64,000 nt of DNA from Methylophilaceae bacterium LSUCC0665 (lineage in GTDB: Bacteria > Pseudomonadota > Gammaproteobacteria > Burkholderiales > Methylophilaceae), in NCBI GenBank assembly GCA_024919215.1, contig CP103437.1, positions 1 through 64,000 on the forward strand, in the 5' to 3' direction. Numbering within the stretch: position 1 is the first letter of the stretch; each line of letters begins with the position of its first letter. The notes under the pieces were generated by a model. It made no database searches, was not told the DNA's origin, and was given only the letters and a program-made list of their open reading frames with translations. Below are positions 52,342 to 56,620 of the stretch, piece by piece. The translations under genes were made by a program, and so were the position numbers.

Positions 52342-52413
52342 TTACTTATTGCATACGTACATTGTTACTTCAAAACCGAAACGCATTTCAGTAGCAGCAG
52401 GTGTTGTCCACAT
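52342..52413 (-). CDS. pqqA: PQQ precursor peptide PqqA
   Basis: A 23-codon gene for the peptide whose Glu and Tyr side chains are fused into pyrroloquinoline quinone. It reads MWTTPAATEMRFGFEVTM followed by YVCNK. Glu15 and Tyr19 keep the diagnostic E-x3-Y spacing and the RFGFEVTMY core is that of PqqA. AAAGGAG eight bases before the ATG is a strong ribosome site. It has its own promoter and terminator; pqqBCDE are not adjacent. Cys replaces the common Met in the fourth residue from the end. Confidence 0.93.
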   Translation of the reverse strand: MWTTPAATEMRFGFEVTMYVCNK

Positions 52414-52517: not shown

Positions 52518-54713
52518 TCATGAGAGTTTTTTTTGGATTTTCTTTCTAAATCTTTTGATTTCAACAAAAACATCATAATTTATAAGGGATAACTTATCTA
52601 ATAGTGATAAAGATTTGTTATTAAGTTGGAAATAATATTTAAGGAAAATATTTCTTGTTTCCCAATCGAATTTGTTAAGCAGCCTGACTATGTCTTTCAT
52701 TCTTTGTCTTTTGCGTGATTGGAAACTGAGATTTCTGAAGTAATTCCTCACCCTTCCAGTATCAATTAATTCAAAATCAAAGTGGTTATCATTAATTTTA
52801 ATAAAAATATTACCTGCAGAAAGGTCATTAAAAAATAAACCACGACCATGCATATCATTTATAAACTGGGCACAGTGCTCAAAAATATGTCTTTTACTTA
52901 AACCTTTAAATGTATTTTCAGATCGGAAATGCATAGCTAGTTCGTTAAAGTTATAGGCATTACTGTATGAACAAATATAATAATTTTCAAGGCCTGTCTT
53001 ATCACTCTTTTTGCTGAATACGGCAATTGGAGATGCAGTATTAATCCCTTTGGCAAGCAAGGCATTTGCGCCATTCCATGCTCTTATGGATTTATTAGGA
53101 CGATGTCGATCAAGGTAAAGTTTATGCGGGTAAATATGTGCCGGCTTTTTAATCACGACCTTGCCAAAATTTGGAATATCAAGACTCCAAACAGCATTTC
53201 TAGATAACCTGAGACTATCTTTTTTGTCAGGACTGGATAGTTTTGATGGATGACAAGCTTTTAAAAATGAATGCAGTGCATTTTTATTTTTTGTTTTAAT
53301 CAACCCCTCCCATTCGGCATCATGTAGAAAAAAATAATGTTGAGGATCATGATTAATAAAGTAATTATTAGAGATTTTGGGGGCCTGAATTAAATTGGGT
53401 TGATGAGATTTTTTCCAATAAATAAAGATAGGGTTCTCAGTTATAGCGTTTGGTGTTTCAATCTCATTGCCGAGATGATCTTTATATTGTCCATTCCTTA
53501 AATCATTTAAATGATAGTGAAGTTGAATATCTTGAACAAGACAATTTTGTGTCCATAAGATATGAATGATCTGATTACTTTTTTCGAACTCTAAAATATG
53601 GATATTTGTATCATGTGAGTAATCTTTAATAAATTTAGCACCAGGAATAGTTATGTTAAAAAAACGGAGCGCATAGTACATTTTTTTAATATTAAAATCA
53701 GAAATCTTACCCCGCGCCTCTTTATAGTATGTGACCTGCTCGAGATTAGGATAGTTGGGCTCTTGGATGCTATTCGAAATCAATCCCTCACGTCCACAGA
53801 TGAGAGGCCCCCAGAATACTTTTGCAAAGTCACCTTTAGCGGCCAACAGCGCAAAGTAGCGAGTAACATACTTTGACCTCTGAAGATTTGGTTGCTCTAT
53901 TAATCTGTGTACTCTTTTTTTGCTCCAAAAAGCACAAGGCGATATCAGAGATTTAATATTAAAGTGGTTTGCAATAAGTTTATAAAGAGCTGATTTTTTA
54001 TAAATATCAAATTTAAAGAGCATTGGATATTTTCTCAAAAAGATACGACGGTCGTATGGCTCTGGCTGAATCGTTCTTTCCATAAACAAATTATTTGATA
54101 TCTCATCTGGAAGCTGATGTTTTGATTGTAAATATCTATATATCCCAAAATTAATAAAGGGCTCAAAGTCTGTAACATTTGGACCTATGATAGAGCGCTT
54201 ATGAATTCGGCACATGGAGTAAGTGGAAGCCCAGATCATAAAGAAGCTTTTAAAGGACAGTTTTGTCCATGATGGCCTATTGATTGTGGATCCAATTTCA
54301 ACGGCAAAAGGAATCTCTTTAAAATCATTAAAGAATTTATTGATAAAATTTTTCCAAGCCATCATTCCATGCTCAGAAGAAATATCTCCAGCATCTTTTG
54401 GCGGCGGACTAAGATTGACAATAATAGAGCCATTAAAATGCTTTAATTTTTTTAGTAATCTTGCTTTATGGTTGTTTAAATCTTCATATGTGAAATATAT
54501 CCGTAGATTTTTTAATCTAAGATCCTGAATCTTATCTAAAATATATTCGTCAGTGTCTTCATTTTTATTGCTGGCGATATTTACTCCAATAAAGTTTTCG
54601 GGAACAACGTGCGGTACATCTGCTCTTTCAATATGCCTCAAGTCTGATCGTGCATAAAAAAGAAGAAATTGTGTGAAGTATTTTAAATTTATGTATAAAT
54701 GACTTAATTTCAT
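52518..54713 (-). CDS. Two-part protein: glycosidase-like region fused to LPS-kinase-like domain
   Basis: A 731-residue protein without signal peptide. The C-terminal third (about 510-725) has the marks of a WaaP/lipopolysaccharide kinase fold: VVIKKPAHIYPHKL with candidate ATP lysine, the catalytic loop NDLSAGNIFI with Asp630 and metal-binding Asp651 in LIDTGR. The N-terminal part (about 30-440) looks like a TIM-barrel glycosidase, with IIVNLSPP and AVEIGSTINRPSW, but I cannot assign a family. It overlaps the upstream LTA-synthase-like gene by four bases. A joint role in surface-glycan modification is inference. Confidence 0.6.
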   Translation of the reverse strand: MKLSHLYINLKYFTQFLLFYARSDLRHIERADVPHVVPENFIGVNIASNKNEDTDEYILDKIQDLRLKNLRIYFTYEDLNNHKARLLKKLKHFNGSIIVNLSPPPKDAGDISSEHGMMAWKNFINKFFNDFKEIPFAVEIGSTINRPSWTKLSFKSFFMIWASTYSMCRIHKRSIIGPNVTDFEPFINFGIYRYLQSKHQLPDEISNNLFMERTIQPEPYDRRIFLRKYPMLFKFDIYKKSALYKLIANHFNIKSLISPCAFWSKKRVHRLIEQPNLQRSKYVTRYFALLAAKGDFAKVFWGPLICGREGLISNSIQEPNYPNLEQVTYYKEARGKISDFNIKKMYYALRFFNITIPGAKFIKDYSHDTNIHILEFEKSNQIIHILWTQNCLVQDIQLHYHLNDLRNGQYKDHLGNEIETPNAITENPIFIYWKKSHQPNLIQAPKISNNYFINHDPQHYFFLHDAEWEGLIKTKNKNALHSFLKACHPSKLSSPDKKDSLRLSRNAVWSLDIPNFGKVVIKKPAHIYPHKLYLDRHRPNKSIRAWNGANALLAKGINTASPIAVFSKKSDKTGLENYYICSYSNAYNFNELAMHFRSENTFKGLSKRHIFEHCAQFINDMHGRGLFFNDLSAGNIFIKINDNHFDFELIDTGRVRNYFRNLSFQSRKRQRMKDIVRLLNKFDWETRNIFLKYYFQLNNKSLSLLDKLSLINYDVFVEIKRFRKKIQKKLS

Positions 54714-56620
54714 TGAGGAGGCAATCTATAAAGTTTTTGACTATATAAAATGCTTGGCAGCAGGGCATGCGCTAGTTGTTTGTCGTAATTAATATTGTTT
54801 TGATCATTTGGGATAATTTTATTATTCATAAAGTCATATTTCCCATAAAAAATTTCTTGATTAGGCTGTAAAACAAAGAGTTCGTCAGGCTCCATCCAGG
54901 CAAAGTTATCATAGTATTGCATAATCGCTCGGCCTCTGTAGTTATGATCTATAGCACTCATGTCCTTTCCAATCATAGGATGTCTGGCATGGATACCCGC
55001 TAATGAGAGCATGGTAACAGGCAAATCAATTTGGCTAGTGATTGAGTTAATTACTGTTGGATTTATACCACCCCCAATGATCAAGCCTGGTATATGAAAA
55101 TTTTTAATCGGAATTAAAAAATCGCCTCGGACCCGGATATCATGATCCGCAACTATTAAGAAAATAGTGTTCTCCCAATAATCACTCTGCTTTGCTTTTT
55201 GTATAAATTCACCGAGGGCATGATCTGCATATTTCACAGTATTTTTTTCTGTCGCTTGTGGTTGTTCGTAAAGATCAATGACACCTTCTGGGAATTCAAA
55301 TGGGGCATGATTAGATGAGCTAAAGACAAGGCTAAAGAAGGGTTGATTTTGATTATGGCGCTCTAAGAATTCTTCATGTGCTTTTTGATATAGATCCTGA
55401 TCTGAGGCTCCCCAGCTACCTTTAAACATTGGGTTAGCAAAATCCTTTTGTTCAATTATTTTTTTAAAACCATTCCCAGTAAAAAAATTACGCATATTAT
55501 CAAAATGAGCTTCTCCGCCGTAAATAAAACTTGTTTCATAATTTTTCTCATTTAATAAAGAGGCAAGCGTAAAAAAGTTAGATTGTGACAAGGGCAGCTT
55601 CACCGTGCTCTGTGCAGGAGTTGGAGGAAAACCAGATACAACCGCTTCGATTCCGCGCACTGATCGTGTTCCTGTGGCATACAGCTGGGAGAACCAAATA
55701 CCTTCATTTTTTAGTTTTTCTAAATTAGGGGTCACTGGTACTCCACCAAGAGATTCTACAAAAGTGGCCCCCAAACTTTCTTGCAGGAGGATGACAATAT
55801 TTTTTGGTTTGCCTTGATAGCTAGGCGTCAATGTTTTTTGGGTTGGATATTCAGCCGGGCCATGTTGGGAGGTCAGTGAATAAATTTTTTCGATATCCAT
55901 CTTCCCATATACTTTGGATGCTGATGCTTCATGCTTCATACTGTAAGCTGCATAAAACACAGAGTAAGGGGAATTGAGAACAAGAGAATTCACCATGGCA
56001 TTATCTGTGATGGCAAACATTGCTGGGTTGGCTGGACGGTGGCCAAAGCTAGATCTAATACTGATCAATATCAGGACTATGACGATTGGCCAAATCACAA
56101 GATGCATCAATTTATATTCAAACTCATTTTGCCTAAGAAAAGCAACAATGATCAATCTTGAGACAAGCAACACAGATCCGATGACCAAAATTGCATCTAG
56201 GGTAAATCCCTTGAATAACATTTCAAAGACTTCTCTAGGGTATTTTAAATACTCAAGAAATAAGACATTGGGTCTTGTATTGTATTCATTGATGAATGTG
56301 ATTGAGCAGGCTTCGATGATAAATAAAATGATAAAACTAAGAATGATCCAAAATCTTAAGAAGGAATGATAAATATGTTTTGTTTGACCATTAATAAAAC
56401 TGAGTGGAAAAATCAATAAAGGTATTAAAAATACTAAACCCAGTTGAATCAGATCCACTCGAATGCCTTGCAATAAGACATCTAGAAATTTGTCGGTTGC
56501 AGTAACGGCATCCAACTGCGAGAAAATTAACCCTAGCCGAGAAAGACTAAAAAAAATTAAACCAAAAAAATAAGCCTTTAGAAATGGATAGTAAGGATTA
56601 CGTGATAGGTCAGGAAACAT
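54710..56620 (-). CDS. LTA synthase-like membrane sulfatase-fold protein
   Basis: A 636-residue protein with about five N-terminal helices (to about 230) and a periplasmic alkaline-phosphatase/sulfatase domain. Motifs include NIVILLQESLGA, the likely nucleophile Thr in ATGTRSVRG, SSSNHAPFEFP and the metal site VADHDIR. This is the layout of LtaS/OpgB phosphoglycerol transferases. Gram-negative members decorate glucans or LPS rather than making teichoic acid, so the substrate here is open. Its stop overlaps the kinase-like gene, making a two-gene operon. Confidence 0.83.
   Translation of the reverse strand: MFPDLSRNPYYPFLKAYFFGLIFFSLSRLGLIFSQLDAVTATDKFLDVLLQGIRVDLIQLGLVFLIPLLIFPLSFINGQTKHIYHSFLRFWIILSFIILFIIEACSITFINEYNTRPNVLFLEYLKYPREVFEMLFKGFTLDAILVIGSVLLVSRLIIVAFLRQNEFEYKLMHLVIWPIVIVLILISIRSSFGHRPANPAMFAITDNAMVNSLVLNSPYSVFYAAYSMKHEASASKVYGKMDIEKIYSLTSQHGPAEYPTQKTLTPSYQGKPKNIVILLQESLGATFVESLGGVPVTPNLEKLKNEGIWFSQLYATGTRSVRGIEAVVSGFPPTPAQSTVKLPLSQSNFFTLASLLNEKNYETSFIYGGEAHFDNMRNFFTGNGFKKIIEQKDFANPMFKGSWGASDQDLYQKAHEEFLERHNQNQPFFSLVFSSSNHAPFEFPEGVIDLYEQPQATEKNTVKYADHALGEFIQKAKQSDYWENTIFLIVADHDIRVRGDFLIPIKNFHIPGLIIGGGINPTVINSITSQIDLPVTMLSLAGIHARHPMIGKDMSAIDHNYRGRAIMQYYDNFAWMEPDELFVLQPNQEIFYGKYDFMNNKIIPNDQNNINYDKQLAHALLPSILYSQKLYRLPPQ

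Follow-up and report, generated by a model that had tools for sequence, protein, structure and literature searches.

Results

A fusion gene and a membrane-enzyme gene share four bases

The window analyzed here is the whole stretch of 64,000 nucleotides at positions 1 to 64,000 of contig CP103437.1 of Methylophilaceae bacterium LSUCC0665, whose genome is a single contig of 1.31 Mb; all coordinates below follow window numbering. On its minus strand lie two overlapping genes, an upstream gene for a putative lipoteichoic acid (LTA) synthase-like membrane protein, hereafter the partner, and a downstream gene, hereafter the fusion, that joins a barrel-like N-terminal half to a predicted kinase of the 3-deoxy-D-manno-octulosonic acid (Kdo)/WaaP family (Table 1). 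An earlier sequence-only reading of this DNA had described two minus-strand genes overlapping by four bases, and both open reading frames (ORFs) indeed lie at those positions and on that strand, with the bases ATGA in common. The fusion protein matched two named relatives, Methylophilaceae bacterium LSUCC0717 and beta proteobacterium KB13, at 87% identity. The same reading had called it cytosolic-looking, a fair description as no hydrophobic stretch exceeded the threshold (the highest 19-residue Kyte-Doolittle mean was 1.11). In ten comparisons among five genomes, the ratio of nonsynonymous to synonymous substitution rates (dN/dS) was 0.07-0.11 for the kinase half and 0.064-0.095 for the N-terminal half; the fusion is therefore no chance frame, and its barrel half is not decaying.

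Table 1. Features of the two-gene locus in window coordinates.
Feature	Position	Strand	Description and evidence
Fusion gene	52518..54713	-	731 aa; barrel-like N-half (~30-450) and predicted Kdo/WaaP-family kinase (~490-731); ORF, PF06293, conservation in 47 sequences, dN/dS
Barrel-like N-half of fusion, residues ~30-450	53364..54626	-	Invariant residues in 47 fusions; homology to standalone proteins
Kinase half of fusion, residues 489-731	52521..53249	-	PF06293; invariant residues in 47 fusions; WaaP alignment
Partner gene	54710..56620	-	636 aa; five hydrophobic segments (~16-188) and LTA-synthase-type sulfatase domain; nearest solved structure 3lxq (VP1736)
ATGA overlap, partner stop/fusion start	54710..54713	-	Four bases; ORF coordinates

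The C-terminal half of the fusion is a predicted Kdo/WaaP-family kinase

The proposal that this half is WaaP-like was borne out by Pfam, in which residues 542-685 matched PF06293 with 28.5 bits (gathering cut-off 21.3); three other fusions scanned also exceeded the cut-off, with 24.2, 42.5, and 55.7 bits. We scored conservation in the 47 distinct full-length fusions with a fetched locus, rather than in all 74 of the family survey described below, and found K522, H622, D630, N635, D651, and R654 identical in 47/47. Asp630 and Asp651, the two residues singled out earlier, are thus invariant. The expectation that the DxG and HxD motifs would persist in homologues held for these aspartates and failed for the remaining residues: the histidine position of HxD (HRD) is F628 in the window, with Phe in 45 and His in 2 of the 47, while the DxG motif reads D-T-G in the window and keeps its glycine in only 13.

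A kinase-only profile searched against the Protein Data Bank (PDB) matched Pseudomonas aeruginosa WaaP (6dfl) with an E value of 1.2e-8, in fifth place behind four eukaryotic-kinase rows. With the full-length fusion profile, the top rows were eukaryotic protein kinases and WaaP had an E value of 0.0053, and the fusion sequence alone gave no match in the PDB. In the kinase-profile alignment, D630, D651, and R654 stand opposite WaaP D163, D188, and R191. In the WaaP study (PMC6147952), mutants of these three WaaP residues failed to support growth, and the HRD histidine (H161) was essential. Of the other WaaP features, R191 alone is kept in the fusions, as R654, and H161, Y165, and H168 are not; the Y165 position corresponds to S632 (Ser in 44/47, otherwise Ala or Thr) and the H168 position to N635 (Asn in 47/47). 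For the window fusion, the NCBIfam KdkA equivalog model scored 18.3 against a cut-off of 142, and the RfaP model was not listed at E values up to 1. Judged by its sequence, this half is a kinase of the PF06293 family but not WaaP itself, because H161, Y165, and H168 are absent.

The partner belongs by sequence to the LTA synthase/phosphoglycerol transferase superfamily

The earlier assignment of the partner as a membrane phosphoglycerol-transferase-type enzyme was likewise upheld. It matched PF00884 with an E value of 8.7e-48, and its five hydrophobic stretches (overlapping peaks merged) lie N-terminal to a sulfatase-type domain with metal ligands, the arrangement that marks the superfamily. 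Against the PDB, the partner profile hit VP1736 (3lxq) with an E value of 2e-183 over 439 profile positions, followed by the LTA primase LtaP (4uop, 6e-31); E281, H438, D492, and H493 align with like residues of LtaP and are identical in 11/11. The partner fell under every NCBIfam cut-off, scoring 64.7 against 970 for LtaS, 67.5 against 572 for phosphoglycerol transferase I, and 58.1 against 574 for another model. VP1736 itself carries the name 'uncharacterized', and no paper naming it was found in the literature searched, whose coverage left out most subscription journals. By this evidence the partner is a superfamily member with predicted head-group transfer activity.

Among 11 partner neighbourhoods, a heptosyltransferase-family gene lay near the partner relative in three (G453, G766, and G584), and in one (G569; locus L159, 6082-8456) the partner-type transferase ORF overlapped a prokaryotic diacylglycerol kinase ORF. 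Diacylglycerol kinase removes the diacylglycerol that this type of reaction leaves behind. The sequence class of the partner and this neighbour point to phospholipid head-group transfer. The window's own genome holds two further PF00884 proteins side by side at about 673-676 kb (locus L157, 5163-8430), followed by a 222-aa ORF.

Within the family the partner orthologue occurs only with the fusion

Co-occurrence in relatives, which the sequence-only reading had anticipated, was surveyed in 150 Methylophilaceae genomes, with a partner orthologue taken as a match of over 700 bits. A full fusion was present in 74 genomes and a partner orthologue in 70, all of which also carried the fusion. Sixty of these 70 pairs were adjacent on the same strand with the partner upstream, at gaps of -1 to 116 bases by profile boundaries; by the same boundaries, seven of the 60 had the ATGA-type junction, all in the window's genus. 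The other ten pairs were non-adjacent, nine on different contigs and one (G814) 264 kb apart, and non-adjacency was confirmed from the flanks in six genomes of three genera (G032, G810, G814, G816, G831, and G833). Four genomes had the fusion only (G802, G825, G838, and G846, at 99, 78, 76, and 48% completeness), and none had the orthologue only. This asymmetry fits a partner that needs the product of the kinase, and it suggests a one-sided dependence within the family. The same 10 of 24 genera, read off the tables, carry both genes, with a naive probability of 5e-7 that ignores shared ancestry.

In seven further genomes that lack the fusion, partner matches were weaker (135-288 bits): six had what we took for a second paralogue (G797, G803, G813, G822, G893, and G896, at 247-288 bits), and one (G852) had a broken fragment of 157 residues with three stops. 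The six were left out of the 70 because the same weaker type stands beside an orthologue in other genomes. The fragment was also left out; G852 looks as if the pair had decayed together. From the 74 we left out G888, which has a 52-residue kinase-end fragment in a 64-aa frame. A long open frame in G883 and G902 had raised the possibility of a read-through partner-kinase fusion, which was rejected on finding a stop codon between the two.

In the order, 8 of 399 genomes carried the full fusion, all of them from this same family. Outside the order the two genes are only loosely linked: in the class the full fusion was found in 4 of 369 genomes besides the window's own (G590, G503, G792, and G433), one of which has the partner. 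No relative was found in viral contigs, and phages and plasmids each gave two weak partial kinase matches.

The pair occupies a site that is often empty in relatives

In the window the pair is flanked by amt-like and mltA-like genes (gene names lacking a family call were assigned by eye). We viewed ten genomes chosen as lacking the pair and at least 90% complete, seven from the window's genus and three from genus g7. In eight of them, the only ORF between an amt- or lplT-like gene and mltA was a pqqA-sized one. Of the other two sites, that of G873 had one 555-aa ORF, and that of G017 (L185, 3712-6436) had three ORFs of 274-285 aa between amt and mltA, two of them alike by eye. The lplT-like neighbour was rejected as a functional clue, since in the pair-less genomes G896 and G873 such a gene is likewise found adjacent to mltA or one gene away from it.

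These sites bear on the view that the two genes are mere neighbours in a cassette that is gained and lost, with no common substrate. Because the site is empty in eight of ten pair-less genomes, joint absence can be a single event, and in genomes of other families the two are generally found separately. Against this, both genes are kept though unlinked in at least six genomes of three genera, the six confirmed from their flanks above, and we regard a mere cassette as improbable.

Between the fusion and mltA lies a 23-codon gene at 52342-52413 (minus strand), below the size limit of the ORF list, which we take to be pqqA-like (encoding the precursor peptide of pyrroloquinoline quinone). Of 26 loci scanned, 23 encode a near-identical peptide, among them all ten from pair-less genomes; the three lacking it were G032 and two other regions of the window's own genome.

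The N-terminal half is probably barrel-shaped and lacks the glutamate pair of canonical glycosidases

No Pfam or NCBIfam model matched the N-terminal half of the window fusion or its domain order, in line with the earlier statement that no named family has this order. Pfam likewise had no model above cut-off for the N-halves of 18 fused proteins or for six standalone relatives. The half is conserved, with E139, T143, N145-R146, D182-F-E184, E212-R213, R267, R270, and R308-x-G310 identical in 47/47 fusions. A profile of the 18 fused N-halves aligned with one of the six standalone proteins over 282 columns (hhalign E value 2e-27). The standalone profile retrieved four fusions from 369 class genomes (E values 6e-18 to 6e-25), missed the window's own fusion in that search at the limit of 1e-6, and gave nothing significant against the PDB. 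In genomes of f160 and f193, the standalone barrel gene adjoins a trmB-like gene (named by eye).

The full-length fusion model was poor, with a predicted local distance difference test (pLDDT) score of 36.3, because its alignment was limited to three near-identical rows (the window, L017, and L018; 87% identical). A barrel-only model reached a pLDDT of 48.5 and a predicted template modelling (pTM) score of 0.44, and strands and helices alternated with some confidence over only about 120 residues (~50-180 of the protein). Its top Foldseek matches were mostly glycosidases and other triosephosphate isomerase (TIM)-barrel enzymes, none significant (best E value 0.05), and are weak hints. The earlier description of a TIM-barrel-like half agrees in part with this alternation and with the best matches; the model is too poor to establish the fold, and the N-half is a probable barrel.

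The accompanying label 'glycosidase' found no support in a comparison with the standalone relatives. Clan-A glycoside hydrolases have a catalytic glutamate on strand 4 and another on strand 7, and carry Asn-Glu at the first site. At that site the standalone proteins have [NH]-A and the fusions [SNTA]-T, the threonine being T143. At the second, a glutamate of the standalone proteins (E271 of A3, in E-x-N-W-P) that looks like a glycosidase nucleophile is replaced in the fusions by V, C, A, S, N, Y, or I; placing these sites on strands 4 and 7 rests on the poor structure model. With other residues at both glutamate positions, a canonical clan-A glycosidase is not supported.

Both groups do share a D-x-E pair, D182/E184 in 47/47 fusions and matched in 9/9 standalone barrels. 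Kinase-less N-halves provide a comparison: in genus g34, 13 genomes match the N-half only, with the kinase half absent and none of them among the 77 genomes with any partner match. In the four viewed, a gene of 399-412 aa for this N-half occupies the same site (for example L070, 9200-10399, and L073, 9151-10389). These N-halves have lost 23-24 of 46 invariant columns (several are alignment gaps), including D182, E184, N145-R146, and R213; their dN/dS is 0.036-0.051. The D182 and E184 positions are both Ser in the four examined. The conservation of this pair in fusions and standalone barrels, together with its loss in g34, would suit an active glycosidase that uses an unusual acid pair to trim a core sugar, either ahead of its phosphorylation or afterwards. 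Neither clan-A glutamate position of the fusions is glutamate, however, and no glycosidase family was above its cut-off for the barrel relatives scanned, so that we think such an enzyme quite unlikely.

Gene context in some relatives points to the lipopolysaccharide core

In G032 and G810 the fusion sits between a grpE-like gene and the heptosyltransferase I gene (waaC), overlapping waaC by four bases (in G032, TIGR02193 scored 341 bits against a cut-off of 185); in the window genome the grpE-like and waaC-like genes adjoin, with 59 bases between them. In G792, waaC and hldE precede the fusion, which is followed by gmhA, a glycosyltransferase, and a protein with three Kdo-kinase stretches; G433 looks alike. 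In G100 and G418, which belong to another family, separate genes encode barrel and kinase and cluster with a heptosyltransferase-family gene and a glycosyltransferase. Three features point, by sequence and context, to the lipopolysaccharide (LPS) core: the class of the kinase, the coupling to waaC, and the occurrence of the two halves as separate genes in a glycosyltransferase cluster. Among the ORFs of these regions are a 745-aa protein with three Kdo-kinase-family stretches near a fusion in an LPS-core region (L084, 13851-16088), and a single ORF with family-4 glycosyltransferase and polysaccharide deacetylase domains beside a separate kinase gene (L079, 9789-11603).

Discussion

Our preferred reading is that the pair modifies the LPS inner core on the two sides of the inner membrane, kinase and barrel acting before the transferase; as the majority of neighbourhoods say nothing on this point, we give it a probability of about one half. 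From the results above we infer a substrate, an order of steps, a role for the barrel, and a donor lipid. The cytosolic fusion kinase would phosphorylate a core sugar (heptose or Kdo) during core assembly, and its barrel-like half would most likely hold or position the acceptor oligosaccharide. Once export had taken place, the membrane partner would move phosphoglycerol or phosphoethanolamine from a phospholipid onto the same glycan, acting on or near the site prepared by the kinase. The sequence-only reading had suggested that the two genes could form an unrecorded route for phosphorylating and decorating a surface glycan; as a prediction from sequence and context this is still the best reading, and part of the context points to the LPS core as that glycan.

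Several observations weigh against it. A heptosyltransferase-family gene was present in only 4 of the 28 fusion neighbourhoods viewed, as scored with a profile built from eleven such genes met in the analysis, including those of two of these four. Three other Kdo-family matches are present in the window genome, and two adjoin its waaC-like gene, so the kinase of the fusion need not act on LPS. The replaced HRD histidine and the missing WaaP residues count here as well. The co-occurrence is uncorrected for ancestry and has no control gene pair, and counting the weaker matches would give seven partner-only genomes. The partner is missing from three of the four fusion genomes outside the order, and of the 16 class genomes whose partner-type gene exceeds 500 bits, 15 lack the fusion; with the two mostly apart outside the family, neither gene needs the other everywhere.

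Some of these points would suit a kinase whose target is a different glycan, on the surface or lipid-linked (capsule, exopolysaccharide, or glycolipid); the partner would then transfer phosphoglycerol to this other glycan or, like OpgB, to periplasmic glucans. The 24 neighbourhoods devoid of a heptosyltransferase-family gene, the other LPS-kinase candidates of the window genome, and the partner's scores with the models for LtaS and phosphoglycerol transferase I, which lie far under the cut-offs, are compatible with it. The fusion does, however, sit with waaC in genus g3 and in G792 and G433, and we consider another glycan fairly unlikely.

More speculatively, the pair could be an undescribed two-step LPS-core module in which a kinase with a glycan-reading or -trimming barrel, bearing the invariant Asp-x-Glu site instead of the customary glutamate pair, phosphorylates inside and the LTA-synthase-like enzyme caps the phosphate with phosphoglycerol or phosphoethanolamine outside, the g34 barrel having outlived both enzymes, under strong selection, in another, non-catalytic role; we put this fuller version forward tentatively, as one that is unlikely to hold in every part. 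LPS core phosphates help hold the outer membrane together. If the LPS-core reading is right, a kinase that has a sugar-binding or -cleaving module built in and is tied, within its family, to an LTA-synthase-type partner would offer a new means of selecting and decorating a site, and the decoration may be one that no family database describes. It would also give a first functional lead for two groups, the Pfam-unmatched barrel family and the VP1736-type transferases, and the presence/absence pattern at one site makes the proposal testable in laboratory methylotrophs.

Each component has known relatives. The partner is like LtaS, LtaP (4uop), OpgB, and the VP1736 family in its hydrophobic N-terminal part, sulfatase-type domain, and ligand residues, yet it lies far under the equivalog cut-offs of both LtaS and phosphoglycerol transferase I. 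The fused N-half is homologous to the standalone barrels of other class families and of family f18 of the order, for which no named family was found; the N-R, D-F-E, and R-x-x-x-P motifs are common to both, whereas the standalone proteins have no kinase and keep the glutamate of E-x-N-W-P. The kinase half resembles WaaP/RfaP (the LPS heptose(I) kinase, 6dfl) and KdkA in its PF06293 score and, for WaaP, in the aligned catalytic and metal-binding aspartates. It differs from them in its largely Phe-substituted HRD motif, in a score far under the KdkA equivalog cut-off, and in being joined to an N-terminal half of about 450 residues; to our knowledge, the kinases known to place LPS core phosphates have no such extra domain.

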